A stretch of DNA of 64,000 nucleotides from Qipengyuania aquimaris (GTDB lineage Bacteria > Pseudomonadota > Alphaproteobacteria > Sphingomonadales > Sphingomonadaceae): positions 2,184,381 through 2,248,380 of the forward strand of contig NZ_WTYI01000001.1 in the NCBI RefSeq assembly GCF_009827445.1, in the 5' to 3' direction. Numbering within the stretch: the first letter of the stretch is position 1; the number at the start of each line of letters is the position of its first letter. Below the pieces are notes generated by a model. That model saw only the letters and a program-made list of their open reading frames with translations, was not told the origin of the DNA and made no database searches. Below, piece by piece: positions 15,251 to 40,635 of the stretch. The position numbers and the translations under genes are program-made.

Positions 15251-16753
15251 ATGAATTCGGGAGGGGTCCGTACAGTTCTGGCGCTTTCGGCAGCCGTCGC
15301 AGCGCTAGCCGTACCGCAGGGTGTCGCACAGGCAGACACGCTTCAGGAAGCACTGACGGACGCCTATCTGAATAACCCGACGCTCGAGGCTGCGCGGGCC
15401 CAGCTAAGGGCGACCGACGCTGGCGTGCCGCTGGAACGCGCAGCTGGACTGCCGTCGGTCGATGCCAGCTCGACCTTTACCGAAGTCCTCAAGCAGAATT
15501 CGACCAGTTTCTTCGCTCCCGGCCGTTCGCTGACAGCCGGGGTCGATCTCGGCGTCCCGATCTATTCCGGCGGAGCGGTCAAGAATGCCGTTCGATCCGC
15601 CAAGGAACGTGTCGATGCCGGCCGGGCCGACCTGCGCGCCACCGAAAGCGCAATCTTCAGCCAGGTCGTCGCCGCCTACATGGACGTGCTGCGCGGCCAG
15701 GCACTGGTCGCCCTTTCGGCCAACCAGGTGAACGTGCTTTCGATCAATGTCGATGCAACGAGCGACAGGTTCGAGATCGGTGACCTGACGCGCACCGACG
15801 TTGCCCAATCGCAGGCGCGCCTTGCTGTCGCCCAAGGCGATCTTCGTAGCGCGCAAGCCAACCTCATTGCCGCGCGCGAGACCTACGTCGCGCTCGTAGG
15901 CGATGCCCCGGAAGATCTGGCCCCCCCTCCCCCGCTTCCGGGCTTCCCCGAGAATGTATCCACGGCGGTCGATATCGCGCTGGAATCGAATCCCGACCTG
16001 ATCGCCGCACGCGAACGGGCGGCAGCCGCCGGTTACGACATCGAGGTGGCCGGTTCCGGTCGCCTCCCGCGGGTTTCCGTGTTCGCCGGTTACGACTACC
16101 AGAACTTCCTTGGCAGTGTGGCCGACGGGCGCCTCGACCCGACCGATCCGGATAGCCCGATCGTGCCCAGCGACCAGACGGCAGCCGGCGCATCGATGGG
16201 TGTTTCCCTCCGCCTCCCGATCTTCCAGGGTGGCCGGACAGCAGCCCTCCAGCGGCAGGCGCAAGCCCGTGCTTCCGCTGCGCTCGAAAACGTCATCGCC
16301 GCAGAACGCGACGTGATTGCGCAGGTCAGGGCCTCTTGGTCGAGCTGGCAGGCCAGCCTCGCCATCATCGAAAGTTCGCAATCGGCCGTTTCCGCCGCCG
16401 AACTGAGCCTCGAAGGCGTGCGTGCGGAAAACTCGATCGGGAACCGGACGATCCTCGACGTGCTCAATGCGGAACAGGAATTGCTGCAAAGCCGCGTCCA
16501 GCTCGTGACCGCGCGCCGCAATGCCTATGTCGCAGGCTTCAGCCTTCTCGCCGCAATGGGCCGTGCCGAAGCGCGCGATCTGGGCCTTGCGGACGAAGGT
16601 GTCCTTTACGATCCGGTCGTCAATTACGACCGCGTGAGCGGCAATATCTTCGACTGGGCGCGGGATCCCGACCCGGTTGCGCAGTCTCCGAGGACGGTGG
16701 ATGTCCCTGCTGCGACTGCAGAAATTCCCGAAACTGCTGACTCGGCCGACTAG
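15251..16753 (+). CDS. TolC family outer membrane efflux/secretion channel
   Basis: A 500-residue outer membrane channel subunit. A signal peptide covers about 1-30, ending Val-Ala-Gln-Ala. Two outer-membrane efflux repeats follow (about 35-235 and 245-450), each with long Ala- and Gln-rich helices and a strand-containing part such as SVDASSTFTEV. Conserved TolC features include the DLTRTDVAQSQARLA segment and, in the second repeat, SIGNRTILDVLNAEQELL. The trimer would span the outer membrane and periplasm for type I secretion or RND efflux. The inner-membrane partners are not in this window. Confidence 0.93.
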   Translation: MNSGGVRTVLALSAAVAALAVPQGVAQADTLQEALTDAYLNNPTLEAARAQLRATDAGVPLERAAGLPSVDASSTFTEVLKQNSTSFFAPGRSLTAGVDLGVPIYSGGAVKNAVRSAKERVDAGRADLRATESAIFSQVVAAYMDVLRGQALVALSANQVNVLSINVDATSDRFEIGDLTRTDVAQSQARLAVAQGDLRSAQANLIAARETYVALVGDAPEDLAPPPPLPGFPENVSTAVDIALESNPDLIAARERAAAAGYDIEVAGSGRLPRVSVFAGYDYQNFLGSVADGRLDPTDPDSPIVPSDQTAAGASMGVSLRLPIFQGGRTAALQRQAQARASAALENVIAAERDVIAQVRASWSSWQASLAIIESSQSAVSAAELSLEGVRAENSIGNRTILDVLNAEQELLQSRVQLVTARRNAYVAGFSLLAAMGRAEARDLGLADEGVLYDPVVNYDRVSGNIFDWARDPDPVAQSPRTVDVPAATAEIPETADSAD

Positions 16754-16809
16754 GCTGGTCTATACCAAGCGTCCCGATTCGGGATTCGTTGGAGGCAACA
16801 GGGACAGGC

Positions 16810-17316
16810 ATGGGACAGCAGGGCGAACCTTCGGTCGAGGAAATCCTCGACTCGATCAAGAAAGTCATCGCACGCGATAGCGAAGAGCGCAGCGAGATGA
16901 TCGCCGAGCGTCGCAGCCGCCGTGCAGCGCCAGCCGACACCAGCGAACCCGTCGACGAGCAGGAAGCGGAAGACGTGCTCGAGCTGGGCAACGATCTCGG
17001 CGAAGAGATCGCTGTCGATGGTGCGGCTTCCAGCAATGCGGACGCTTACGCATCTGACGAGGATGATGACGACGCGGACGGCCTGACCCGCGGCGATACC
17101 CGTCAGGCCATGCGCGATAACTTTGCCGCGCTCGCCATGCTTTCGCAGCCCGGCAAGCAGCCGCAGATCGTGCGTCAGGGCGAAACTTCGCTCGAGGGCC
17201 TGGTGCGCGATATGCTGCGCCCGATGCTGGCGGAATGGCTCGACAACAACCTGCCCGGGATGGTCGAAGACCTCGTGAAGGCAGAGATCGCCCGCATCGC
17301 CGGCAAGAAGAGCTAA
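16810..17316 (+). CDS. PopZ-family (DUF2497) polar organising protein
   Basis: A 168-residue protein with the two conserved ends of the family: EPSVEEILDSIKKVIA at the N-terminus and LEGLVRDMLRPMLAEWLDNN plus a final helix at the C-terminus. Between them lies an acidic, low-complexity stretch rich in Asp, Glu and Ala, as in Caulobacter PopZ, which forms a polar matrix and tethers ParB-parS. I prefer ATG 16810 to an upstream in-frame TTG. The gene follows TolC by 56 bases. Polar function in this organism is inferred from the family. Confidence 0.85.
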   Translation: MGQQGEPSVEEILDSIKKVIARDSEERSEMIAERRSRRAAPADTSEPVDEQEAEDVLELGNDLGEEIAVDGAASSNADAYASDEDDDDADGLTRGDTRQAMRDNFAALAMLSQPGKQPQIVRQGETSLEGLVRDMLRPMLAEWLDNNLPGMVEDLVKAEIARIAGKKS

Positions 17317-20256: not shown

Positions 20257-20688
20257 ATGAATATCGGCACACTAATCGAGGGTCGGGCAAGTTCGGACAT
20301 CATCTCGGTGGAAGTGGGTCAAACCGTGCGCGACGCTGTTCGGATACTGGCCGATAAGCGGATCGGTGCCCTTCCCGTCCTTGAACAAGGGCGTGTCGCG
20401 GGAATTTTCTCGGAGCGCGATGTCATTCATCGGCTGGCCGAAGAAGGGCAGAGCTGCCTCGATAGTAGGGTCGGCGATGTGATGACTTCGCCCGCCATTA
20501 CCGTGGAACGAACAACGCTCATCGATGACGCTCTCGCTCTGATGACCCGGCGTCGAATTCGTCACCTTCCGGTCATCGAGAGCGAAGCGATGTGCGGCTT
20601 CATCTCGATCGGAGATCTCGTGAAGTCCCGCTTCGACGAGGTCCAGCACGAGGCCGAAGCTTTGCGGGATTACATCACACACGCTTGA
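20257..20688 (+). CDS. CBS domain protein
   Basis: A 143-residue protein made of one pair of CBS motifs (about 10-60 and 75-130). Typical features are ILADKRIGALPVLEQG, GIFSERDVIHRLAE and LMTRRRIRHLPVIES, GFISIGDLVK. The pair forms a Bateman module that binds adenosyl ligands such as AMP, ATP or SAM. Stand-alone versions probably regulate unknown partners. I start at ATG 20257, with GGAG six bases upstream; the frame continues upstream without support. Confidence 0.88.
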   Translation: MNIGTLIEGRASSDIISVEVGQTVRDAVRILADKRIGALPVLEQGRVAGIFSERDVIHRLAEEGQSCLDSRVGDVMTSPAITVERTTLIDDALALMTRRRIRHLPVIESEAMCGFISIGDLVKSRFDEVQHEAEALRDYITHA

Positions 20689-20719
20689 GGAGGGCCAACC
20701 GGCTCCCTACATAGCCGCT

Positions 20720-21049
20720 ATGGCCGATATGCTCACCCTCACTCCCTCGGCAGCTGCGCGAGTCGCGGCCATTGCAGAAAAGCAGGCGAAACCTGCCATC
20801 CTGCGCCTTTCCGTGGAAGGCGGCGGATGCTCCGGCTTCCAGTACAAGTTCGATCTCTCGGACGGTGCGGATGCCGACGATAGCGTGAGCGAAACCGATG
20901 GAGTGCGCCTTGTGGTCGATCCTGTCAGCCTCGATCTGGTCGCGGGAAGCACGGTGGACTTCGTGGAATCTCTCGGCGGCGCGGCATTCAAGGTTGAAAA
21001 TCCCCAAGCTGCGGCCGGGTGCGGCTGCGGTTCGAGCTTCGGGATTTAG
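20720..21049 (+). CDS. erpA: Iron-sulfur cluster insertion protein ErpA (HesB/IscA family)
   Basis: A 109-residue A-type carrier that delivers Fe-S clusters to apoproteins. The three invariant cysteines are visible: one in GGGCSGFQYKF and two in the C-terminal GCGCGSSF. The length and the SLGGAAFKVENPQA segment fit ErpA better than IscA. It lies downstream of the CBS gene by 31 bases and upstream of exodeoxyribonuclease III, all on the plus strand. Which proteins it serves cannot be read here, but the window encodes fumarase and ferredoxins that need clusters. Confidence 0.9.
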   Translation: MADMLTLTPSAAARVAAIAEKQAKPAILRLSVEGGGCSGFQYKFDLSDGADADDSVSETDGVRLVVDPVSLDLVAGSTVDFVESLGGAAFKVENPQAAAGCGCGSSFGI

Positions 21050-21087
21050 GTTAGACCCGCGCGACGCTTTCGGGCATCAGTTCGCCC

Positions 21088-21873
21088 ATGCGTATCGCCA
21101 CTTTCAATATTAACGGGATCAAGGCCCGCCTGCCACGCCTCAAGGAGTGGCTTGAAGAAACTCGCCCGTCGGTCGCCTGCCTGCAGGAAATCAAGACGAT
21201 GGACGAAGGCTTTCCGGCCGAAGAATTCGAAAGCATCGGCTATCATGCCATCTGGCATGGGCAGAAAAGCTTCAACGGCGTCGCGATCCTGGCCGATGGT
21301 GTAAAGCCGGTCGAAATCCAGCGCGGGTTGGGCATCGATGGGCCCAAGGACGGCGAGGGGGAACAGGCCCGCTATCTCGAGGCCGAGGTGTACGGGGTGC
21401 GCATTTGCAATCTCTACCTGCCGAACGGCAACCCGCATCCGGGCCCGAAATTCGATTACAAGCTGGCCTGGATGGAGAAGCTTCGCGCGCGGATGAAGGC
21501 CGTTTGGGAAGAAGAAGTGCCTACGGTCGTGCTGGGCGACTTCAACGTCATTCCGGAAGACAAGGACGTATGGTCGCCCAAGGCGATGGCGTCCGATGCG
21601 TTGATGCAACCGGAATCGCGCGACGCCTATTTCCGCCTGCTTGGCGATGGCTGGACCGATGCGATCGATACGCTCAATCCGCGCGGCGGCGTGTGGACTT
21701 ATTGGGACTACCAGGCAGGCGCCTGGCAGCGCGACCATGGCTTCAGGATCGACCACCTGTTGCTCTCGCCCGAACTCGCCGACCGGATGACGGCAGCGGG
21801 CGTAGACAAGGAATATCGCGGTCGCGAGAAGTCCAGCGACCACACGCCGGTCTGGGTTGAGATCGCCGACTGA
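21088..21873 (+). CDS. xth: Exodeoxyribonuclease III
   Basis: A 261-residue AP endonuclease and 3'-5' exonuclease acting in base excision repair. Catalytic motifs are present: NINGIKAR at the N-terminus, LQEIK with the metal-binding Glu, LGDFNVIPEDKDVW in the middle, and SDHTPVW with the catalytic His at the C-terminus. The length matches the family. It starts 38 bases after erpA and is followed by a hairpin shared with the opposing hydrolase gene. Confidence 0.95.
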   Translation: MRIATFNINGIKARLPRLKEWLEETRPSVACLQEIKTMDEGFPAEEFESIGYHAIWHGQKSFNGVAILADGVKPVEIQRGLGIDGPKDGEGEQARYLEAEVYGVRICNLYLPNGNPHPGPKFDYKLAWMEKLRARMKAVWEEEVPTVVLGDFNVIPEDKDVWSPKAMASDALMQPESRDAYFRLLGDGWTDAIDTLNPRGGVWTYWDYQAGAWQRDHGFRIDHLLLSPELADRMTAAGVDKEYRGREKSSDHTPVWVEIAD

Positions 21874-21885
21874 CAACCCGAAAGC

Positions 21886-21920
21886 AAAAGGCCGCCACGC
21901 CTGAGCGCAGCGGCCTCGTA
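21886..21920 (-). terminator. Terminator between converging xth and the SleB-like gene
   Basis: AGGCCGC at 21889-21895 pairs with GCGGCCT at 21910-21916. The A-rich bases before it (AAAGCAAA) give a TTTGCTTT-like tail on the minus strand, so it best serves the leftward cell wall hydrolase gene. It may also stop xth. Confidence 0.65.
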
Positions 21921-21937
21921 TTCCCGTCCAAAGAATT

Positions 21938-22591
21938 TTATCGGTAAAAGATGTGCGTCTTGATGGTGGCGCGAGCGACCTTGCGCTTTGCCCAGCTAGG
22001 GCGGACGTAATTCGCGTGGAAATAGAGCGAATCGTCGGCTTCGCTGTCCCACAGGCCTTGGTGCGCAATGCGCGCAACAGCCTTGGCGCGTTTCCATGCA
22101 GCAGAGCCCTGCTTGATGCGCGGCATTTTGCCGCCGCGAACGAAGCTGAACTGGGCGCGCTGGTAGACCACGCCGCAATAGCTGGAGGGGAACTGGCGCG
22201 ATTCGCTGCGGTTGATGACGACCTGCGCAACAGCCAGCTGGCCTTCGAGCGGCTCACCGCGCGATTCGAAATAGACGGCACCTGCAAGGCAGCGCATCTC
22301 TTCCGACAGCTGTCCGGCTGCAGGCATGGCGGAAACCAGCGCGTGCAGGCTCTCGGCCTTTGGCGCTTCCGCGGGAATTTCTTGGGTGGCTTCCGTTTCT
22401 TCAGGAAGTTCTTGGACGACTTCGCCTTCGACGAATACCGGCACGACCTCATCGGTCAGTTCGGTTTCGGAGACGATCGTCTCGCTATCCGCTTCAGCAG
22501 CGAAGGCGATGGAGCCGGTTTCTTCCGCACCGGCGAAACTTGCAACAAGCGTAACCGCGCTCGCCGCGAGGGCTAGGTAAGTCTTTCGCAT
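21938..22591 (-). CDS. SleB-like cell wall hydrolase
   Basis: A 217-residue exported protein. A signal peptide is at about 1-22, an acidic Glu-rich linker covers about 40-75, and the C-terminal Hydrolase_2 (SleB/CwlJ) domain starts near 95. The latter has the expected CLAGAVYFESRGEP with the catalytic Glu, AQVVINR and CGVVYQ, and ends with the SLYFHANYVRP segment. In Gram-negative bacteria these act on peptidoglycan in the periplasm during growth. A 202-base gap without a gene follows upstream, probably holding its promoter. Confidence 0.88.
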   Translation of the reverse strand: MRKTYLALAASAVTLVASFAGAEETGSIAFAAEADSETIVSETELTDEVVPVFVEGEVVQELPEETEATQEIPAEAPKAESLHALVSAMPAAGQLSEEMRCLAGAVYFESRGEPLEGQLAVAQVVINRSESRQFPSSYCGVVYQRAQFSFVRGGKMPRIKQGSAAWKRAKAVARIAHQGLWDSEADDSLYFHANYVRPSWAKRKVARATIKTHIFYR

Positions 22592-22793
22592 TATTCCGAG
22601 TGACTAAGCGGTGAACTCGCAGTCGCAGGCCGGGATCAGAGGCACGTTACTTGTGCCATACTATTCAGATCCGTTTTTCGAGCCTGCCGGTCGTTCCCCG
22701 TCTGCGTGCTAGCTTGCCGACCCCATTGTCGTCCAAAGCCGCCTACGCATCGAAGCTGGGCAGCCAAATAGTCACAATTGAAACCGTGTCAAG

Positions 22794-23144
22794 TTAACGG
22801 GGGTCGGAATCGATGAGCCGTTCCATTTCGGGGCCATCCAGCTCCAAAATCCAAAGATCGGGGTCCTGGTCCATGCGGCGACGGATATAATCGTCAAATT
22901 CGCGCGCATTTTCAATGTCTTGAGTTCTTGTTGCTTGAAAGCGGCGTGTCCCATCCAACTGCGGCATCCGCTCCCAAAACATTGTATTTTTGCCACTGTG
23001 TGTGGTTAATATGCCCAGCGTTCCTGCATCGCGCTCGCCCGATTGAAGGACGGTAGCAAAGCCTCCGGCGGCCTGGGCCTGGCGTATCAGGCCGCTCACC
23101 TCGATATGTGTCGGCAGGCGCGCGTCTTCGAAGCCGTGGCTCAA
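22794..23144 (-). CDS. DUF1491 family protein
   Basis: A 116-residue protein with the DUF1491 features: an N-terminal RLPTHIEVSGLIRQAQAAGGFATVL and a C-terminal DPDLWILELDGPEMERLI. The family is restricted to alphaproteobacteria and has no known function. It begins with TTG, four bases overlapping the stop of the thioesterase gene (TTGA), so I infer coupled translation. An ATG seven bases further upstream is in another frame and not used. Confidence 0.75.
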   Translation of the reverse strand: MSHGFEDARLPTHIEVSGLIRQAQAAGGFATVLQSGERDAGTLGILTTHSGKNTMFWERMPQLDGTRRFQATRTQDIENAREFDDYIRRRMDQDPDLWILELDGPEMERLIDSDPR

Positions 23145-23599
23145 GCGGCATATCCCGGTAGGCCGGAGAGTGAGATGCGCGATTTCATGAAGGTGCCCGT
23201 GCCGCGGCCTATTTCGTCACCTTCGGCATCGACCAACCGTGATTCGGCCACGAAAACGCGCCGCTTGCCGCTGACCCAGCGCCCTTCCGCAGTAACGCGC
23301 CCTTCGCGGACCGGCTTGGTGAAATGGAGGTTGAAGGACGTGGTCAGCAGGAAACGGTCCGTAACCAGCGTATTCGCCGCATAGAATGCCGCATCGTCGA
23401 GCATCTTGAAGTAGATCGTCCCGTGCGCTGCGCCGGCGGCATGATAGGCAGCCTCGGTCACATCGAAAGTGATGCGCGCGCTGCCTTCCCCCGTGATCTC
23501 GAGCGAGGAATCGAACAGGCCGTTTACGGGTGCAGAGGCGTACAATCCCTCAAGAGCGCGCCAGTGACCCTCCGCGCCGCTATTGCCAGACATTGCCAT
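23141..23599 (-). CDS. PaaI-family hotdog thioesterase
   Basis: A 152-residue hotdog-fold protein of the PaaI group, which hydrolyses acyl-CoA thioesters. The core AAGAAHGTIYFKMLDDAAFYAAN corresponds to the active-site helix: the His-Gly pair and the Asp of DDA are positioned as expected. The following strands contain TSFNLHFTKPVREGRV. It is not a well-defined substrate class. It starts ten to fifteen bases after the ribosome hibernation factor and overlaps DUF1491 at its end, in a leftward run of genes. Confidence 0.82.
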   Translation of the reverse strand: MAMSGNSGAEGHWRALEGLYASAPVNGLFDSSLEITGEGSARITFDVTEAAYHAAGAAHGTIYFKMLDDAAFYAANTLVTDRFLLTTSFNLHFTKPVREGRVTAEGRWVSGKRRVFVAESRLVDAEGDEIGRGTGTFMKSRISLSGLPGYAA

Positions 23600-23611
23600 C
23601 GAAATGTCCCG

Positions 23612-24181
23612 TCAGCGCGGCTCGACCCAGCCGATCGAACCATCGGGCCGGCGGTAAACCATGTTATGCGCTTCCGTAGCGCCATTCTTGAAGAGCAGCG
23701 CGTTCGTATTCTGCAGGTCGAGCATCATGACCGCATCGGCCACCGAGCATTCGGGGATCATCGCACTCGTCTCGGCAACGATCGGCGGGCTGTCCGAAGT
23801 GATCTCATCGTCGTTCTCGGGCTCGGGCGCGGCGAAGATCGTATAGGCGGCCTCTTCTTCGCGCATGGCATACTGCGCCTGCTCGTGCCGGTCCTGGATT
23901 CGCCTCTTGTAGCGGCGGAGCTGCTTTTCGATCTTGGTTGCCGCCTTGTCGAACGCCTGGTGGATATCGTGGGCCTCCGCATGACCCTTGAGGATGAGGC
24001 CTTGCATGACGTGGGTGACGATGTCCGAAGAGAACGCGCCGCCAGCCGCCTTGCCGAAGGTGACGTGCGAGGAAATCGCGCGGTTGAAATACTTGTCGAC
24101 GATGCCTTGCATGCGGTCTTCGACATGGGTCTGCAGCGCAGCGCCGGTATCGATCTGATGACCCGAGACGCGAATATCCAT
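23612..24181 (-). CDS. hpf: Ribosome hibernation-promoting factor, long form
   Basis: A 189-residue long-form HPF that makes 100S ribosome dimers in stationary phase. The N-terminal S30AE domain (about 1-100) begins MDIRVSGHQIDTGAALQTHVEDRM and includes the basic KIEKQLRRYKRRI. The C-terminal domain (about 130-187), with VADAVMMLDLQNTNALLFKN and YRRPDGSIGWVEP, is the dimerisation domain. The linker between is acidic. The domain order and length match the alphaproteobacterial protein. Confidence 0.92.
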   Translation of the reverse strand: MDIRVSGHQIDTGAALQTHVEDRMQGIVDKYFNRAISSHVTFGKAAGGAFSSDIVTHVMQGLILKGHAEAHDIHQAFDKAATKIEKQLRRYKRRIQDRHEQAQYAMREEEAAYTIFAAPEPENDDEITSDSPPIVAETSAMIPECSVADAVMMLDLQNTNALLFKNGATEAHNMVYRRPDGSIGWVEPR

Positions 24182-24248
24182 ATTTCTCTCCTTTACCGCA
24201 GCATGCCGGTCGGGAACGTGGCGACACGCGCCGCGCCCTCCAACGAAA

Positions 24249-24938
24249 CTAACCCCAAAGCGGGTTTTCGATCCCGCTCATGAATTTCCTGTGGCGCGCA
24301 AGCTCTTCCTCGCTGGGCGCATGGGCTCGCGGCTCGCGGCGCGGACGGTCCGGCGCCTGGCGAACGGCAACCACTTTGTCCTGCTCGACGACCTGCACGC
24401 GCTCTGCCGCGAGTTCCAGGCCGATCTGGCGACCACCCTTGAGTTCCACATAGACCTGGGCGAGCAATTCCGCGTCGAGCAGGGCGCCGTGCTTGACGCG
24501 ATGGCTGCGATCGATGCCGTAGCGCGAACACAGCGCATCCAGCGACAATTTCGCGCCCGGGTGCCTTTTCTTGGCCATGGCGACGGTGTCCACCATCCTG
24601 CTCATGCAGATGGCTTCGCGCTCGCACAGGGTCAATTCGGCATTCAAAAAGGCGAAATCGAACCCGGCATTGTGAGCGATGAGAGGCGCGTCACCGATAA
24701 AATCGAGCAATTCATGCGCGGTATCGCGGAATAGCGGCTTGTCCGACAAGAACGCCGCAGACAATCCGTGCACAGCCTCTGCCCCTGCGGGCATATCGCG
24801 TTCCGGGTTGTAATAAGCGTGGAACACCTCGCCCGTCGGGACAAGATTGACCATTTCCACGCAACCGATTTCGACCATCCGGTCGCCTGTCTTGGGATCG
24901 AGGCCGGTGGTCTCAGTATCGAAAACGATCTCGCGCAT
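24249..24938 (-). CDS. dnaQ: DNA polymerase III epsilon subunit (proofreading exonuclease)
   Basis: A 229-residue DEDDh exonuclease. Acidic motifs are FDTETTG at the start (Asp7 and Glu9), NAGFDFAFLN in the middle and HGALLDAELLAQVY at the end, with the His of the DEDDh class. The C-terminal part is a short linker and tail that would bind the polymerase alpha subunit. It follows coaE by 41 bases in the ppsR-maf-aroE-coaE-dnaQ order found next to the Caulobacter origin. Confidence 0.95.
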   Translation of the reverse strand: MREIVFDTETTGLDPKTGDRMVEIGCVEMVNLVPTGEVFHAYYNPERDMPAGAEAVHGLSAAFLSDKPLFRDTAHELLDFIGDAPLIAHNAGFDFAFLNAELTLCEREAICMSRMVDTVAMAKKRHPGAKLSLDALCSRYGIDRSHRVKHGALLDAELLAQVYVELKGGRQIGLELAAERVQVVEQDKVVAVRQAPDRPRREPRAHAPSEEELARHRKFMSGIENPLWG

Positions 24939-24979
24939 TGCAGGGACTATCGGACTCGTGCTGGCGGATTACAAGGTTT

Positions 24980-25582
24980 TTAGATTCGCGACTGGCTACG
25001 CAAATCGTCGATGAGGCTGTGCACCGCCTGTTCGGTTTGCGAAAGCGTCGTTCCAGTGTCGATGATGTGGTCGGCGCGAGCGCGCTTCTCTGCGTCGGGA
25101 ACCTGAAGTGACAGTATGTGCGCAAATTTCTCGGGCGTCATCGCAGGGCGGGCCAGCACGCGCTCGCGCTGGACCTCGGCCGGGGCAGAGACGACCACCA
25201 CCACATCTACCGCCTCGGAGCCGCCTTTCTCGAACAGGAGTGGGATGTCGAATACCACCATGTCCTGACCGGCGTGTTCGATCAGGAAGGCGCCCCGTTC
25301 TTCGGCGACTGCCGGGTGAACGATGGCCTCGAGACGGGCGAGGGCGGGTTTGTCGCCGAACACCAGCTTGCCTAGCTTGTCCCTCAGGACACCGGTTTCG
25401 TCGGTGCTGCCCGGAAATTCAGCTTCGATAGCAGCGAGGAGCCTCCCGCCGGGGCCCTGCATCCGGCGGACTTCCCTGTCGGCATCGAAGACCGGCACGC
25501 CCGCACGCTCGAACATCTCGGCGACCGTGGATTTACCCATCCCGATCGAGCCGGTGAGCCCGATGATAATCGGCCGAGTCAT
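24980..25582 (-). CDS. coaE: Dephospho-CoA kinase
   Basis: A 200-residue P-loop kinase doing the last step of coenzyme A synthesis, phosphorylation of the 3'-hydroxyl of dephospho-CoA. The Walker A motif is GLTGSIGMGKST at 9-20, followed by GVPVFDADREVR and, near the middle, DMVVFDIPLLFEKGG. The N-terminal start overlaps the aroE stop by four bases (ATGA). Family length is normal. Confidence 0.94.
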   Translation of the reverse strand: MTRPIIIGLTGSIGMGKSTVAEMFERAGVPVFDADREVRRMQGPGGRLLAAIEAEFPGSTDETGVLRDKLGKLVFGDKPALARLEAIVHPAVAEERGAFLIEHAGQDMVVFDIPLLFEKGGSEAVDVVVVVSAPAEVQRERVLARPAMTPEKFAHILSLQVPDAEKRARADHIIDTGTTLSQTEQAVHSLIDDLRSQSRI

Positions 25583-26430
25583 GAAGTAAGCCTTTCGCGC
25601 AGCTCACCATCATGCTCTCGCGGTGCCTCGACACCGAAGAAAAATCGAAAGGCGGCCGAAGCCTGACCGATCAGCATGGAAAGACCATCGATAGTCCGCA
25701 GCCCCGCATCGCGCGCCGACGTCAGGAAAGCTGTCTCGAGCGGGTCGGTGACGATATCATAGGCTATCGATCCCGGCGGGGCGTGGCTCCAGTCAAAGGG
25801 CAATGACGGCTGGCCGCGCATTCCAAGGGGGCTGGCATTGATGACCAAATCGCAGCAGCCGTCCCGGTCGTCGAAGGCAAAGTCCGTCACTTCGGCAAAA
25901 TGCGACAGCGGCGCGACATGGTGTTCTCCCTCGGCCAGTTCATCAAGAAGAGCGCGCGCTTTGTCGGTATCGCGTCCCGCAAGGACGAGGGTGAACCCTT
26001 CCTTCGCAAGTCCCGCCACGATGGCACGCGCTGCACCTCCCGTGCCCAGAATGCGTGCCATCCGGAAATAATGCGTGCCCGACAGTTCCGATCGCAAGGG
26101 TTCGAGAAAGCCCGCGACATCCGTGTTGCGCCCTACCAGCGCTCCGTCCGGAGCCTTCACGACCGTATTTACCGCTCCCACACGCTTGGCCAGGGGCTCC
26201 ATCCGGTCGAGGTAAGGGATGATCGCCTGCTTATGCGGCATGGTGACATTGCACCCGCGCCAGTCGGGGTCTCCCCGCCGTTCGGCAAGATAGTTTTCGA
26301 GACCGGATGATGCGACATGGTGCGCGCGATATTCCGCCTCGATCCCGAGCTTTTCGATCCAGAAGCCGTGGATCGCAGGAGACTTGGACTGCGCGATCGG
26401 GTCGCCGATGACCTCTGCGTAAGGCTTCAC
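25579..26430 (-). CDS. aroE: Shikimate dehydrogenase
   Basis: A 283-residue NADP-dependent enzyme converting dehydroshikimate to shikimate. The substrate-binding domain opens with [17 protein letters not shown], and the nucleotide-binding domain has the GTGGAARAI loop. Downstream is the conserved NASPLGM. I start at GTG 26430, because it overlaps the maf stop in GTGA and the extra upstream reading is antisense to maf. It overlaps coaE by four bases. Both neighbours belong to a tightly packed operon. Confidence 0.93.
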
Positions 26431-27023
26431 GAGGGAAGGGCGCCTCCATCGCGCAGCGCGTCGAGAACCTGGAGCAACGGCATTCCCAGTACGGTAAACT
26501 GGTCGCCGATGATGCTTTCGAACAGTTGCACGCCCGGACCCTCGATCCGGAAAACGCCGACACAGTAAGAAACTTCCGGCCATTCGGCATCGAGGTATGC
26601 TTCGATGAATTCCTCGGACAGCTCCCGAACTTTGAGGCGCGCGAAATCCGATCCCATCCAGACGATCTTCCCGTCTCGTGCCAGCGCAGCAGCACTGTGC
26701 AAGGTCATTACCTTGCCGGAAAAGAAACGCAGGTGCTCTGCCGCCTGGTCGCGGGTTGCAGGCTTGTCGAACCTGCGCCCATCGACTTCGACAAGTGAAT
26801 CGCTGCCCAGGACCAGACCGTGCGATTTCACGCCGGTCGCCTTTGCTGCAGCCAGAGCCTGCGCGATCTCTGCGGGATCGGCGCCCTCCATCTCGGCTTC
26901 CAAAGCACGCTCGTCGACATCGGCGGGCTCTGCCGAATAGGAAACGCCGGCCGCATCCAGCATCGCCTTGCGCGAGGCGGAATTCGAGGCGAGCACGATG
27001 CCTGTGCCCGAAATGCCGCTCAT
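26427..27023 (-). CDS. maf: Maf family nucleoside triphosphate pyrophosphatase
   Basis: A 198-residue Maf protein, which hydrolyses non-canonical or canonical NTPs to monophosphates. The N-terminus has [12 protein letters not shown], corresponding to the Ser/Arg nucleotide-binding loop, and the [14 protein letters not shown] segment carries the conserved Asp. The C-terminal half contains the Tyr-Cys-Val-Gly and Gly-Met-Pro-Leu pattern. It overlaps ppsR and aroE by four bases each. Which nucleotide it prefers is not visible. Confidence 0.9.
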
Positions 27024-27877
27024 ATCGCCTTCACCCCTTCGAAATCGCCGCCCGTTTTGTGGCTGCGCTCGCTACACAGCCGAATGACCGCAGCAGCAGT
27101 TTCCTCGATTGAGCGGCGCGTCACATCGATAACCGGCCATCCATTATCAGCGAACATCCGGCGTGCGAACGCCACTTCCGATTTGACCCGCTCGTTATCG
27201 ATATAGGCAGTCTGAGACTGCTCGTTCAGCGTGAGGAGGCGATTGCGGCGGATCTGGACGAGGCGTTCCGGCGCGGTTGTAAGGCCGACGACAAGGGGCT
27301 TGCGCAGCTCGAAGAGTTTAGGGGGCGGGGGACTTTCGACCACCAGCGGGATATTCGCGACCTTATATCCGCGATTGGCTAGATAGATGCTCGTCGGCGT
27401 CTTCGAGCTGCGCGAGACGCCTGCCAGGATGATGTCGGCCTCTTCCCAGTTTTCCCAGCCGATACCGTCATCATGGGCGATGGTGAACTGGATCGCCTCG
27501 ACGCGTTCGAAGTAAGCCTTGTCCATCTGGTGCTGGCGGCCAGGACGTCCATGAGCTTCCTGCCCCAGCGCTTTTTCCAGCGCCTCCGTCACACGATCGA
27601 GAATCGGCACGGCAGGCAGCCCGTTCTGGGCGCACACCTCTTCAAGGCGCGCACGCGCCTCGGGATTGACGAGGGTGAAGAGGACCAGGCCGGGATTTGC
27701 CTTGAGTTCCGGCACGATCCGGTCGAGATGTTGGCGCGAGCGGACCATGGGCCAGAAATGGCGCACGACATCGGCATCGTCGAACTGCGCGAGTGCGGCC
27801 TTGGCCAGCATTTCAAGCGTTTCGCCGGTGGAATCGGACAGCAGGTGGAGATGAATACGGTCGGCGATGTTGGTCAC
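27020..27877 (-). CDS. ppsR: PEP synthase / PPDK regulatory kinase-phosphorylase (DUF299)
   Basis: A 285-residue bifunctional regulator that phosphorylates and dephosphorylates phosphoenolpyruvate synthase or pyruvate phosphate dikinase. The phosphate-binding loop is [11 protein letters not shown] at 153-163. I use the GTG at 27877 (TNIADRIHL), because the longer upstream frame runs into the putative origin and has no homology-like sequence. This gene is the first of the leftward overlapping chain; in Caulobacter its counterpart is numbered CC_0001, next to the chromosomal origin. Confidence 0.9.
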
Positions 27878-28118
27878 TTTCGGCCTGTGGAGAAGCACCG
27901 GATAAACCACGGCACAAGTCTGCCGACAAGTTCGGGGATCAATTCCCTCCCCATTGCGAGTCATCTCCGGGGGCGATTCCCGCACAGCAAATGGAACTTG
28001 TGCGCAGGCTGGGGAGAAGCGGGATAAGTTTGACTCGACTCAAGACAGAGCACGAGTCGCAATCCCGTATCCGGCCTTTTCCTTGCGGGAGAAATGGGGC
28101 AGGGGGCGGCTATGCCCG

Positions 28119-28127
28119 ATATCCACA
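28119..28127 (+). other. Putative DnaA box (one mismatch)
   Basis: ATATCCACA differs from TTATCCACA only at the first base. It lies 24 bases before the AT-rich tract in the candidate origin. A second candidate, TGTGGAGAA at 27886-27894, is the reverse complement with one change. Confidence 0.5.
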
Positions 28128-28151
28128 GGGCCAACAGACTCCTTCAACTCT

Positions 28152-28157
28152 TATAAT
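28152..28157 (+). promoter_or_regulatory. TATAAT-like -10 hexamer within the AT-rich tract before hemE
   Basis: A perfect TATAAT lies 33 bases upstream of the hemE start. No good -35 is seen at 17 bases, so promoter function is unproven; the hexamer could simply belong to the DNA-unwinding tract. Confidence 0.35.
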
Positions 28158-28189
28158 AATACTTATTTATTGGATTGGACTCTCTCTCG

Positions 28190-29215
28190 ATGCCCGGCCT
28201 TCTGCTCGACACTCTGAACGGTAAGCGCTCTGACAAGGTGCCGCTCTGGCTCATGCGCCAGGCTGGCCGGTACCTTCCCGAATATCGCGAATTGCGCGCC
28301 GAGAAGGGCGGATTCCTCGCGATGGCTTACGACAGCGAGGCGGCTTGCGAGATTACGCTGCAGCCAATCGACCGTTTCGGTTTTGATGGGGCGATCCTGT
28401 TTTCGGATATCCTGATCGTGCCGCATGCCCTTGGGCAACACCTGGAATTTCTGGCGGGTGAGGGGCCCAAGCTTTCTCCTCCGCTCGTCGAAGCCGAACT
28501 CGATGGATTGAGTCCGGATCGCTCCCGCTACGATCCGATTTACGAAACGGTTCGCCTTTGTCGCCAGCGCCTGTCGGAAAATGTGACAATGCTCGGCTTT
28601 GCGGGCAGCCCGTGGACGGTTGCGACCTACATGGTTGCTGGCGAGGGTAGCCGTGACCAGCACGATGCGCGGGCCATGGCTTATCGCGACCCAGGCAAAT
28701 TGCAGGCGATCATCGATGCGATTGCCCATGAAACTATCGAGTATCTTTCCGGCCAGATCGAAGCCGGTGCAGAGGCCGTGCAGCTCTTCGACAGCTGGGC
28801 CGGCAGCCTTGCGCCCGACGAGTTCGAACGCTGGGTTATCGCTCCGAACGCGAAGATCGTAGCGGCCTTATCGCAGCGGTATCCTGCAACTCCGATCATT
28901 GGCTTTCCCAAGGGAGCTGGAGAAAAGCTTCCGGCCTATGCTCGCGAAACAGGCGTGAAGGCGGTTGGCGTAGATGAAACGCTCGATCCGGTGTGGGTCG
29001 CACGCGAATTACCCGCTGGGATGGCCGTACAAGGCAATCTGGACCCGCTTCTGCTGCTTTCGGGTAGTCCGGCCCTCGAAACGCGCATCGAGACAATCCT
29101 CGAGGCTTTTTCCGACCGGCCCCATGTCTTCAATCTGGGTCATGGCATTGATCGCCGCACCCCGATTGCGAATGTGGAGCGCCTGATTGCAACTGTCCGG
29201 GGCTGGCAGGGGTGA
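28190..29215 (+). CDS. hemE: Uroporphyrinogen decarboxylase
   Basis: A 341-residue heme-pathway enzyme that decarboxylates the four acetate groups of uroporphyrinogen III. The N-terminal WLMRQAGRYLPEYR is the hallmark with the substrate-binding Arg pair, and IILFSDIL-like (AILFSDIL) and FAGSPWTVATYMVAG follow. The C-terminal HNLGHG-type motif appears as FNLGHGI. I start at ATG 28190 rather than an upstream in-frame TTG. There is no clear ribosome site. The gene lies beside the candidate origin, as in Caulobacter. Confidence 0.95.
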   Translation: MPGLLLDTLNGKRSDKVPLWLMRQAGRYLPEYRELRAEKGGFLAMAYDSEAACEITLQPIDRFGFDGAILFSDILIVPHALGQHLEFLAGEGPKLSPPLVEAELDGLSPDRSRYDPIYETVRLCRQRLSENVTMLGFAGSPWTVATYMVAGEGSRDQHDARAMAYRDPGKLQAIIDAIAHETIEYLSGQIEAGAEAVQLFDSWAGSLAPDEFERWVIAPNAKIVAALSQRYPATPIIGFPKGAGEKLPAYARETGVKAVGVDETLDPVWVARELPAGMAVQGNLDPLLLLSGSPALETRIETILEAFSDRPHVFNLGHGIDRRTPIANVERLIATVRGWQG

Positions 29216-36364: not shown

Positions 36365-36380
36365 TGTTTCACGTGGAACA
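36365..36380. other. parS site 1 (between mnmE and mnmG)
   Basis: TGTTTCACGTGGAACA, 16 bases, one change from the palindrome TGTTCCAC-GTGGAACA. ParB-family proteins bind this sequence near origins. It is in the 65-base gap before mnmG. Confidence 0.9.
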
Positions 36381-38283: not shown

Positions 38284-38912
38284 TAGAGCAAGAAAAAGAA
38301 GCGCGAGACTACATTCAAGAGAAGGGCGGGGCGCCCGCTCTTCGGTCGCTATCAGTGCTTTCCGAGCGGCTAAAAGACGAGAATCAGCGCCAAAACCTTG
38401 TTGCCAACGGGTCGCTGGACCACATCTGGATCCGGCATTTCGCAGACTCGGCGCAACTTCTGGACCATGTTCCACGTGAAACAAGGGGCCCCTGGCTCGA
38501 TTTGGGGAGTGGTGCCGGCTTTCCAGGGCTGGTCCTCGCGATATTGCGGCCCGACATCGAGTTTGTGTTGATCGAATCGCGCCGTTTAAGGGTGGAGTGG
38601 CTCGAAAGAATGAGCTCCGAGCTGGGCCTTGAAAATTGCCGCATCAAGGGATGTCGTTTGGAGCAAGTCACTACTGTCGAGGCGGGAGTCATTTCGGCTC
38701 GCGCGTTTGCTCCGCTTGCCAAACTGCTGCTTTTATCCGCACGCTTCTCCACAGACGACACACGCTGGGTGTTGCCGAAAGGGCGTTCTGCGGCTCATGA
38801 AGTGCAGGAGCTACCCGGACGGGAGTCGAAAATGTTCCACGTGGAACAGTCACTCACGGATCAGGAGGCGGGAATTGTCGTTGGTCGGGGCAAAGTGAGG
38901 GAAAAAGCGTGA
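38280..38912 (+). CDS. rsmG: 16S rRNA (guanine-N7) methyltransferase RsmG
   Basis: A 210-residue SAM-dependent methyltransferase that modifies G527 of 16S rRNA. The SAM-binding motif is [15 protein letters not shown] (about 73-87). Other features are the [14 protein letters not shown] segment and VLPKGRSA near the C-terminus. The GTG start overlaps the mnmG stop. Two parS sites lie within the reading frame and encode His-Val-Pro-Arg-Glu-Thr and Met-Phe-His-Val-Glu-Gln. It overlaps parA by four bases. Confidence 0.93.
38468..38483. other. parS site 2 (inside rsmG)
   Basis: TGTTCCACGTGAAACA is identical to the consensus parS originally defined in Bacillus. It overlies rsmG codons. Confidence 0.93.
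38833..38848. other. parS site 3 (inside the rsmG 3' end)
   Basis: TGTTCCACGTGGAACA is a perfect 16-base palindrome within rsmG, 60 bases before parA. Confidence 0.93.
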
Positions 38913-39700
38913 TTACCGTCGCAATTGCCAATCAGAAGGGTGGCGTGGGCAAAACGACCACCGCCATCAATATCGCAACGGCGATGGCCGCCACCGGTTG
39001 GAAAACCCTCCTCATCGATCTTGACCCCCAAGGCAACGCGTCAACCGGCATGGGGATTGAGGCCGTCGATCGGAAGTATTCCAGCTACGACATTCTGCTT
39101 GAGCAAGGTACCTTGGCTCAATGCGCGCAGCCGACTGAAATCCCTGGCCTCGACATTGTCCCTGCGACCCAGGACCTTTCAGGCGCGGAAGTGGAACTGG
39201 TCGCCGTCGATGACCGCACTGCGCGCCTGTCGAAAGCGCTCTCACAGTCAGGTGCAACCGGTTTCGCAAGTTACGATATTTGCTTCATCGATTGCCCGCC
39301 GTCTCTGGGGCTTCTGACCCTGAACGCCCTCGGCGCGGCCGATACGCTCCTGGTGCCCTTGCAATGCGAATTCTTTGCGCTGGAGGGGCTGAGCCAACTT
39401 CTCCAGACGGTTGAACGGGTCCAGCAACGTTTCAATCCGGACCTGGGTATCGTCGGAATAGCTCTCACCATGTTCGATCGCCGCAACCGTTTGACCGACC
39501 AGGTTGCGGACGATGTTCGCGATTGCCTCGGGAATCTTGTTTTTGAGAACGTAATCCCGCGCAATGTACGACTGTCCGAAGCGCCCAGCCACGGCATGCC
39601 GGCGCTCGTATACGACCACAATTGTCCCGGTAGTCGCGCCTACATCGGATTGGCGCGCGAATTAATCGGAAGACTGCCCGAGAGGAGGAAGGCCGCATGA
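38909..39700 (+). CDS. parA: Chromosome partitioning ATPase ParA
   Basis: A 263-residue ATPase that moves ParB-parS complexes. It contains the deviant Walker A motif KGGVGKTT at 10-17, the DLDPQGNAS motif and CPPSLGLLTLNAL. The start is GTG overlapping the rsmG stop. The protein is of the Soj type without an N-terminal helix-turn-helix. It overlaps parB by four bases (ATGA). Chromosomal, not plasmid, in character because of context. Confidence 0.97.
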   Translation: MITVAIANQKGGVGKTTTAINIATAMAATGWKTLLIDLDPQGNASTGMGIEAVDRKYSSYDILLEQGTLAQCAQPTEIPGLDIVPATQDLSGAEVELVAVDDRTARLSKALSQSGATGFASYDICFIDCPPSLGLLTLNALGAADTLLVPLQCEFFALEGLSQLLQTVERVQQRFNPDLGIVGIALTMFDRRNRLTDQVADDVRDCLGNLVFENVIPRNVRLSEAPSHGMPALVYDHNCPGSRAYIGLARELIGRLPERRKAA

Positions 39701-40635
39701 GCCAGGCAATCGATCGCAAGAAGAAGCTTGGCCGCGGGCTCGGCGCGCTGCTTGGAGAAGTCCAGCGCGAGGAGCCGTTGGTCAATTCCGGTAACGAAAG
39801 CAACGAGTTGGCTAGTGCAGCTGCCCCTTCTGTCACCTCGGGGCTCAGCTCGATCCCCGTTGCCGATATCGAACCATTGCCCGGGCAGCCAAGAACGCAT
39901 TTCGACGACGAGGCGCTCGACGAACTGGCCGCATCCATCGCCCAGCGAGGCGTGATTCAGCCCGTCATCGTCACTGCGAGGGCGAGCGGAAAATATCGGC
40001 TGGTGGCCGGTGAACGCCGCTGGCGCGCTGCACAGCGGGCGCGACTTCACCAGATCCCCGCGATCGTTCGCGATCTGGAAGAGCGCGAAGTCCTCGCTCT
40101 GGCGCTTATCGAGAATCTCCAGCGTGAGGATCTCAATCCTTTGGAAGAGGCGCGCGCATATCAGAAACTCGCGGAAGACGAGGGCATGACCCAGGCCGAA
40201 ATCGCAGGCCTGGTCGACAAATCCCGTAGCCACATCGCCAATTTGCAGCGCTTGCTGGCCCTGCCCGACGATGTCCAGGATCTCCTGGCTAACTCCAAGC
40301 TTTCAATGGGCCATGCGCGCGCCCTGATCGGCAATGACGACGCGTCTGCCATTGCGGCACGTGCTGCGAAGGAAGGACTTTCGGTCCGCGAGGTCGAGAA
40401 ACTCGTACGCAAGGCATCTCGCCCGGCAGCCTCAGGTCGCGTCAAACCCCAGATCCCCGAAGCCGAAACGGACGCGGATATCGCGGCTGTCCAAGGGCAT
40501 CTTGAGGAATTTCTCGGCTTGCCGGTGAAGATCAGGACGGATGAGACGCCAAGTACCGGTACGGTCACCATTCGCTACCATACGCTCGACCAGCTTGATC
40601 TGATTTGTCAGCGCCTCACGGGTGGCGACATCTGA
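39697..40635 (+). CDS. parB: Chromosome partitioning protein ParB
   Basis: A 312-residue CTP-dependent clamp that loads at parS and spreads. The N-terminal LGRGLGALL is the ParA-interacting peptide, GERRWRA (105-111) and ENLQREDLNP (139-148) are the CTP-binding boxes, and the helix-turn-helix is at about 164-186. The C-terminal dimerisation domain lies after about 265. The gene ends the mnmE-parB block; the following gene is on the other strand. Confidence 0.97.
   Translation: MSQAIDRKKKLGRGLGALLGEVQREEPLVNSGNESNELASAAAPSVTSGLSSIPVADIEPLPGQPRTHFDDEALDELAASIAQRGVIQPVIVTARASGKYRLVAGERRWRAAQRARLHQIPAIVRDLEEREVLALALIENLQREDLNPLEEARAYQKLAEDEGMTQAEIAGLVDKSRSHIANLQRLLALPDDVQDLLANSKLSMGHARALIGNDDASAIAARAAKEGLSVREVEKLVRKASRPAASGRVKPQIPEAETDADIAAVQGHLEEFLGLPVKIRTDETPSTGTVTIRYHTLDQLDLICQRLTGGDI

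Follow-up and report, generated by a model that had tools for sequence, protein, structure and literature searches.

The 312-bp gap between the ppsR and hemE genes of Qipengyuania aquimaris (positions 27878–28189 of the 64,000-nucleotide stretch of DNA analysed here, referred to below as the window) is almost certainly the chromosomal replication origin, and probably one that is opened through a relaxed basal unwinding system (BUS). We rate the second of these statements below the first because the mechanism of opening is less certain. As a location for an origin the gap is an ordinary one, as known in relatives: in Caulobacter crescentus the origin Cori lies between hemE and COG1806/ppsR (PMC1914354), bearing out the precedent cited in a preliminary description of this DNA, and an oriC by hemE has been predicted for most Sphingomonadaceae (PMC4741004), so a hemE-adjacent origin is not in itself new. 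The newer point is that the opening element of this and many other alphaproteobacterial origins appears to depart from the published three-letter rule, and that the part of DnaA that would read it has changed too.

The chromosome is complete, at 2,662,510 bp, and the window corresponds to its positions 2184381–2248380. The gap and its surroundings contain the following features:

27023–27877, minus strand: ppsR (DUF299/COG1806, Kinase-PPPase; PF03618, E = 1.4e-96), GTG start at 27877, left flank
27878–28189, no strand: ppsR–hemE intergenic gap of 312 bp, the probable oriC, with blocks conserved in 81 relatives, a KOPS split and parS sites in proximity
28190–29215, plus strand: hemE (PF01208, URO-D, E = 5.3e-110), ATG start at 28190, right flank
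36365–36380, no strand: parS site 1, from a genome search allowing up to two mismatches
38468–38483, no strand: parS site 2, from the same search
38833–38848, no strand: parS site 3, from the same search
38909–39700, plus strand: parA (Pfam AAA_31, E = 2.9e-58)
39697–40635, plus strand: parB (Pfam ParB_N, E = 6.9e-34)

The two start codons bound the gap exactly where it had been placed, with hemE on one side and ppsR/COG1806 on the other, as in a hemE-type (Cori-type) oriC. Pfam upholds the gene identities behind the neighbour order proposed earlier (dnaQ-coaE-aroE-maf-ppsR / hemE), returning RNase_T exonuclease for dnaQ, CoaE, shikimate dehydrogenase for aroE, Maf, Kinase-PPPase for ppsR and URO-D for hemE. 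The HemE protein is 95–96% identical to those of Qipengyuania intermedia and Q. nanhaisediminis, which places the bacterium in the Erythrobacteraceae, and ppsR and hemE are adjacent in most of the alphaproteobacteria sampled (67 of 80 in the second of our sets, for example). Neither Rfam nor tRNA scanning of the window gave a match. The parAB genes, parS and PopZ-family gene said to lie nearby were likewise recovered. The whole genome contains exactly three parS sites within two mismatches, all of them 8–11 kb from the gap, and Pfam detects a DUF2497 protein at 16789–17316 in the window, DUF2497 being a family that includes PopZ.

Strand polarity was followed using GGGNAGGG, a KOPS-like octamer, in 839 kb sampled from the 2.66-Mb chromosome, at a resolution of a few kb. 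Across 253 contiguous kb, the best switch in octamer orientation falls between 27945 and 28097, within the gap, and 33 of the 42 sites fit it. The opposite switch is found at 946.6–949.3 kb on the chromosome (90 of 94 sites), roughly half a chromosome from the gap, and the two switch points define replication arms of ~1.40 and ~1.26 Mb; a pair of opposed switches of this kind is the polarity expected of an oriC in general. No dif site was found near the 947-kb switch with a regular expression modelled on that of E. coli. An origin at dnaA (~1.80 Mb) was considered and rejected, there being no polarity switch there; the dnaA gene itself occupies chromosome positions 1804693–1806057, about 407 kb from the origin.

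The same octamer allows a split at 20369–26433, 2–8 kb to the left of the gap, that scores equally well. This genome has a weak GC skew with a broad minimum, a basin at ~17–34 kb of the window. The earlier expectation that the minimum would not lie elsewhere holds in so far as the basin includes the gap, but the basin is shallow and the skew at 18.6 kb is marginally below that at 27.6 kb. These two observations would suit a true origin either a few kb leftward of the gap within the window or at another place altogether, with the ppsR–hemE gap being just a conserved regulatory region. We regard this as very improbable, however, as the DnaA boxes, the AT-rich tract, sequence conservation, the GANTC cluster and the Caulobacter precedent all centre on the gap. 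The identification of the gap as oriC, first put forward in the preliminary description, is now backed by KOPS-like polarity, the clustering of parS, conserved blocks and the literature.

Within the gap, matches to the DnaA box consensus (TTATCCACA) and conserved blocks are arranged as follows:

27886–27894, minus strand: DnaA box TTCTCCACA, one mismatch, its core TGTGGA conserved in at least 90% of 81 relatives
27900–27912, minus strand: block GGATAAACCACGG, possibly a weak DnaA site, with ATAAACCACGG conserved at 90% or more
27924–27931, no strand: conserved block CGACAAGT, from the alignment of 81 relatives
28010–28018, minus strand: TGGGGAGAA, partly conserved and perhaps DnaA-box-like, two mismatches
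28119–28127, plus strand: DnaA box ATATCCACA, one mismatch, adjoining the unwinding region, its TCCACA core near-invariant

The boxes at 27886 and 28119 are the two 9-mers that had been described as one base away from the DnaA box. Matches of this quality number seven in the whole window where 4.65 are expected, so the overall count is unremarkable; a Poisson estimate puts the chance of two falling within 312 bp at roughly 3 in 10,000. No perfect box is present in the gap, the genome's only two perfect boxes being elsewhere, and the DnaA boxes and AT-rich element that characterise a hemE-type oriC are found here without one.

When the gaps of 81 Erythrobacteraceae and close genera are aligned, near-invariant blocks emerge at TGTGGA (27886), ATAAACCACGG, CGACAAGT, part of CAGGCTGGGGA and, at 28122–28146, TCCACAGGGCCAACAGACTCC(A/T)TCA, directly after which comes the AT-rich tract. 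With up to three mismatches allowed, 126 of the 398 Sphingomonadales genomes contain the 21-mer TCCACAGGGCCAACAGACTCC, usually once per genome and usually identical, and the 28122–28146 block is diverged yet alignable in other Sphingomonadaceae. One member of that family with a 2.1-Mb genome carries, upstream of hemE, 12 DnaA boxes with no more than one mismatch, far above any relative, and no ppsR was found adjoining its hemE.

The gap resembles the Cori type of Caulobacter crescentus, and the predicted Sphingomonadaceae oriC, in its ppsR/COG1806–hemE neighbourhood (PMC1914354, PMC4741004). It is also like the Cori type in its several weak DnaA boxes, AT-rich element and several GANTC sites. 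It differs in being shorter, at 312 bp, in its lack of a perfect DnaA box, in the absence from the gap of the CtrA site TTAA-N7-TTAA (or of any TTAA) and in the absence, on either strand of the gap, of the IHF consensus WATCAANNNNTTR. CtrA sites are a criterion for Caulobacter and Rickettsia and are not known to define sphingomonad origins.

To the right of the second box lies the putative opening element:

28128–28138, plus strand: 11-nt spacer GGGCCAACAGA between the box at 28119–28127 and the triplets
28139–28153, minus strand: DnaA-trio-like triplets, CTC CTT CAA CTC TTA on the top strand and 3′-GAG GAA GTT GAG AAT-5′ on the bottom
28148–28171, no strand: candidate AT-rich DNA-unwinding element, 21 of 24 positions A/T, 28151–28171 having one G/C

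The 21-base tract at 28151–28171 had been recognised earlier, and proves to be the sole such 21-mer in the 64-kb window, overlapping the window's most AT-rich 24-mers; the conserved blocks, the GANTC cluster and the DnaA-trio-like triplets had not been picked up. The DnaA box at 28119–28127, 11 nt, C-started triplets (28139–28150) and the AT tract follow one another in the layout of a BUS. In Bacillus subtilis this system comprises DnaA-boxes 6/7 and the DnaA-trios 3′-GAT-5′ (PMC6669920, PMC8287927, PMC10721633), and the gap is like it in having a DnaA box, triplets on one strand leading into an AT-rich region, a G in first position and a spacer that falls in the published BUS peak of 10–13 nt. 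Unlike the B. subtilis system, the gap does not have a central adenine in every trio or a run of at least three NAN triplets, the DnaA of this genome has Val for Asn187, and a second DnaA box is not recognisable: by eye, no co-oriented box follows 28127, whereas tandem boxes are visible in many other alphaproteobacteria.

Under the published BUS rule, a box with no more than two mismatches must be followed, within 0–16 bp, by at least three consecutive NAN trios (PMC8287927). In the window the rule fails after two consecutive NAN trios, the third trio (GTT) breaking the run, and among the 81 relatives it is satisfied in 11, as against 38% of shuffles. Across all 81 the first trio position is C on the top strand in 93, 95 and 90% of cases for trios 1–3 respectively, with varying trio centres (A in 73% and T in 26% at trio 2, A in 88% at trio 3), and trio 4 starts with C in just 57% of the Erythrobacter clade. 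In many relatives other registers of the C periodicity score at least equally well, and the triplet register given here should accordingly be taken as provisional.

Could the block at 28122–28146 be something other than a set of trios? The gap might be oriC with this block serving as the site of another factor, or as part of a divergent hemE/ppsR promoter, whilst the AT tract alone specifies opening. Failure of the published rule in the window, and its rarity in the relatives compared with shuffles, would be consistent with this, as would the GANTC site that the block contains and a degree of conservation far beyond the need of a degenerate trio. Set against these points, 11 nt separate it from a conserved DnaA box, as in a BUS, it leads directly into the AT tract, and the homologous place in other alphaproteobacteria has clear triplet repeats on one strand only; we therefore consider a block without trios unlikely. 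A reading of TCCACAGGGCCAACAGACTCC as peculiar to the clade and unconnected with trios was abandoned when a register of triplets starting with C became apparent 11 nt from the box.

For the relaxed BUS that we prefer, the triplet code was derived by fitting a tied three-position model to 30 other alphaproteobacterial origins from random starting bases, none being preset. This unbiased model superseded a preset C[AT]N count, which was replaced because the pattern presupposed the base. It returned C (.77) at the first position, A (.32), C (.32) or T (.30) at the centre and A (.60) at the third, with an LLR of 66 compared with 0.7–8.8 for shuffled sequences. Both C and A have a period of 3 (lag-3 C is 0.50, the maximum of 1000 nulls being 0.42). 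The.T. pattern of the published rule showed no clear enrichment on either strand.

A held-out set was drawn from 80 further hemE upstream regions, 67 of which have an adjacent ppsR, and scored with a model neutral at the central base. In the 67 origins the best runs scored 6.79 on the top (expected) strand, 3.63 on the bottom strand and 4.14 in shuffled sequence; the expected strand wins in 61 origins, and 31 beat all 20 of their own shuffles. The centre in those 31 runs is A (.41), C (.21) or T (.37), whereas the canonical trio motif would give T throughout on the top strand. A typical sequence reads TTATCCACAGGTAT CAA CTA CAA CAA CTA CCTTTTTATATAAATA. Outside the Sphingomonadaceae, the alphaproteobacterial unit is 5′-CNA-3′ (3′-GNT-5′ on the strand that would be bound), with the first G kept and the centre free, a result that the held-out genomes confirm. 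In 14 Sphingomonadaceae from outside the Erythrobacter clade the unit is instead C-A-N (LLR 34.5 versus at most 4.8), so one rule does not fit all: CNA applies outside the family and CAN within it.

Further clues come from the DnaA protein. The B. subtilis structure shows capture of the first two bases of a trio, the guanine being held by Arg202 and Glu228 and the central adenine by Asn187 via its N6 amine (PMC10721633). An ungapped alignment places Val, Lys and Glu at B. subtilis positions 187, 202 and 228 in the DnaA of this genome. Position 187 is occupied in 28 Sphingomonadaceae by Val (18), Ile (4), Tyr (2) or, in one protein each, Met, Leu, Phe and Asn, and in other alphaproteobacterial families by Tyr (24 of 30), Phe (5) or His (1). 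The comparison beyond the alphaproteobacteria was with the DnaA of three solved structures, Thermotoga maritima having Asn at this position and Aquifex aeolicus Gln. With the guanine contacts kept in kind and the adenine contact lost, the pocket fits a motif with a kept G and a free centre, and the centre of the trio is apparently free because DnaA has replaced the adenine-reading residue. As judged from these sequences, the association between residue change and motif change is a correlation in which the set outside the alphaproteobacteria is small. A non-canonical opening element nevertheless appears to be class-wide and coupled to the change in the DnaA pocket. We found no account of a deviant alphaproteobacterial DnaA-trio in the literature searched, subscription journals and supplements lying outside that search.

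The gap is also rich in GANTC, the recognition motif of the CcrM methyltransferase:

27958–28182, no strand: seven GANTC sites by motif count, at 27958, 27975, 28032, 28037, 28054, 28137 and 28178
28054–28058, no strand: invariant GANTC, found in all 81 relatives aligned, N being G in 53 and T in 28
28137–28141, no strand: GANTC overlapping trio 1, shared by 57 of the 81 relatives, with its bottom-strand target adenine (opposite 28140) as the central base of that trio

This is equivalent to 22.4 sites per kb, ~22 times the 1.04 per kb of a 400-kb genome sample, and seven further pentameric palindromes of this form have densities in the gap between 0 and 9.6 per kb. Under a first-order Markov null of the gap, 1.75 sites are expected (P = 0.0014). 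The mean is 14.9 per kb in the 81 relatives and 8.1 per kb in 67 more distant gaps. Other clusters exist: four sites in 312 bp at 16541–16790 of the window, just before the DUF2497 (PopZ-like) gene at 16789, and the densest sampled, eight in 312 bp at ~2.535 Mb on the chromosome, at and downstream of what by eye is a tRNA-Gln-like gene.

CcrM is encoded at chromosome 325160–326305 (phmmer E = 2.1e-147 to the CcrM structure, PDB 6pbd). One of the two perfect DnaA boxes (TTATCCACA) lies at 325129–325137, 23–31 bp before the ccrM start and amid several GANTC sites, and a perfect box is similarly placed in 25 of 25 genomes of the genus and absent in five Sphingomonadales of other families, which suggests that DnaA may control the CcrM methyltransferase. 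The other is at 1508750–1508758, ~90 bp before ftsZ in the ftsA–ftsZ intergenic region (genes named by eye).

The GANTC cluster could be a methylation switch of the type formed by GATC, Dam and SeqA at E. coli oriC, with CcrM methylating the bound-strand adenine at the centre of trio 1 and thereby modulating re-initiation. Such a switch would be compatible with a relaxed BUS, as an added layer. The two origins are alike in having a dense cluster of methylation sites that are few otherwise in the genome, with GANTC and CcrM here in place of GATC and Dam, but we know of no SeqA-like reader for GANTC and CcrM. The density of sites, the persistence of one of them in every relative despite a variable N, the coincidence of a target adenine with the trio 1 centre and the ccrM gene with its upstream DnaA box all argue for a switch. 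The trio 1 site is lost in 24 of the 81 relatives, however, and the Caulobacter origin, which likewise carries several GANTC sites, kept its initiation control unaltered when CcrM was lost (PMC3973325). For this last reason any role for GANTC at the gap is put forward as a hypothesis, and a doubtful one, though less so than a block without trios.

Putting these elements together, DnaA would bind the weak boxes across the gap and, from the box at 28119–28127, a DnaA-ATP filament would grow rightwards, gripping the bottom strand as the triplets GAG GAA GTT GAG AAT. The AT-rich tract at 28148–28171 would then be opened for helicase loading and forks would depart both ways. The opening element would be a relaxed BUS, in which the first G of each triplet is kept and the centre, adenine in the published motif, is free. 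The position and conservation of the gap, the polarity switch, the triplet periodicity and the change of residue are observed; binding, filament, unwinding and a causal link between residue and motif are predictions from sequence. More tentatively still, and with somewhat less than even confidence, we propose that alphaproteobacteria may use a variant trio code, 3′-GNT-5′ (3′-GTN-5′ in Sphingomonadaceae) rather than 3′-GAT-5′, because their DnaA has swapped Asn187 for an aromatic or aliphatic residue whilst keeping the guanine contacts, and that in the Erythrobacter clade trio 1 may also be fused to a CcrM site at its central adenine, such that methylation could tune opening directly.

In 15% of genomes a survey of BUS sequences detected no trios, and its authors suspected deviant motifs that lack the central adenine (PMC8287927). 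A deviant motif in one bacterial class, together with a matching change in the DnaA pocket, bears on the question that the survey raised. Origin finders would gain, as the (.A.) rule is satisfied less often here than in shuffled sequence, and the coupling of initiator and origin would become testable through exchange of a single residue and a single base position.
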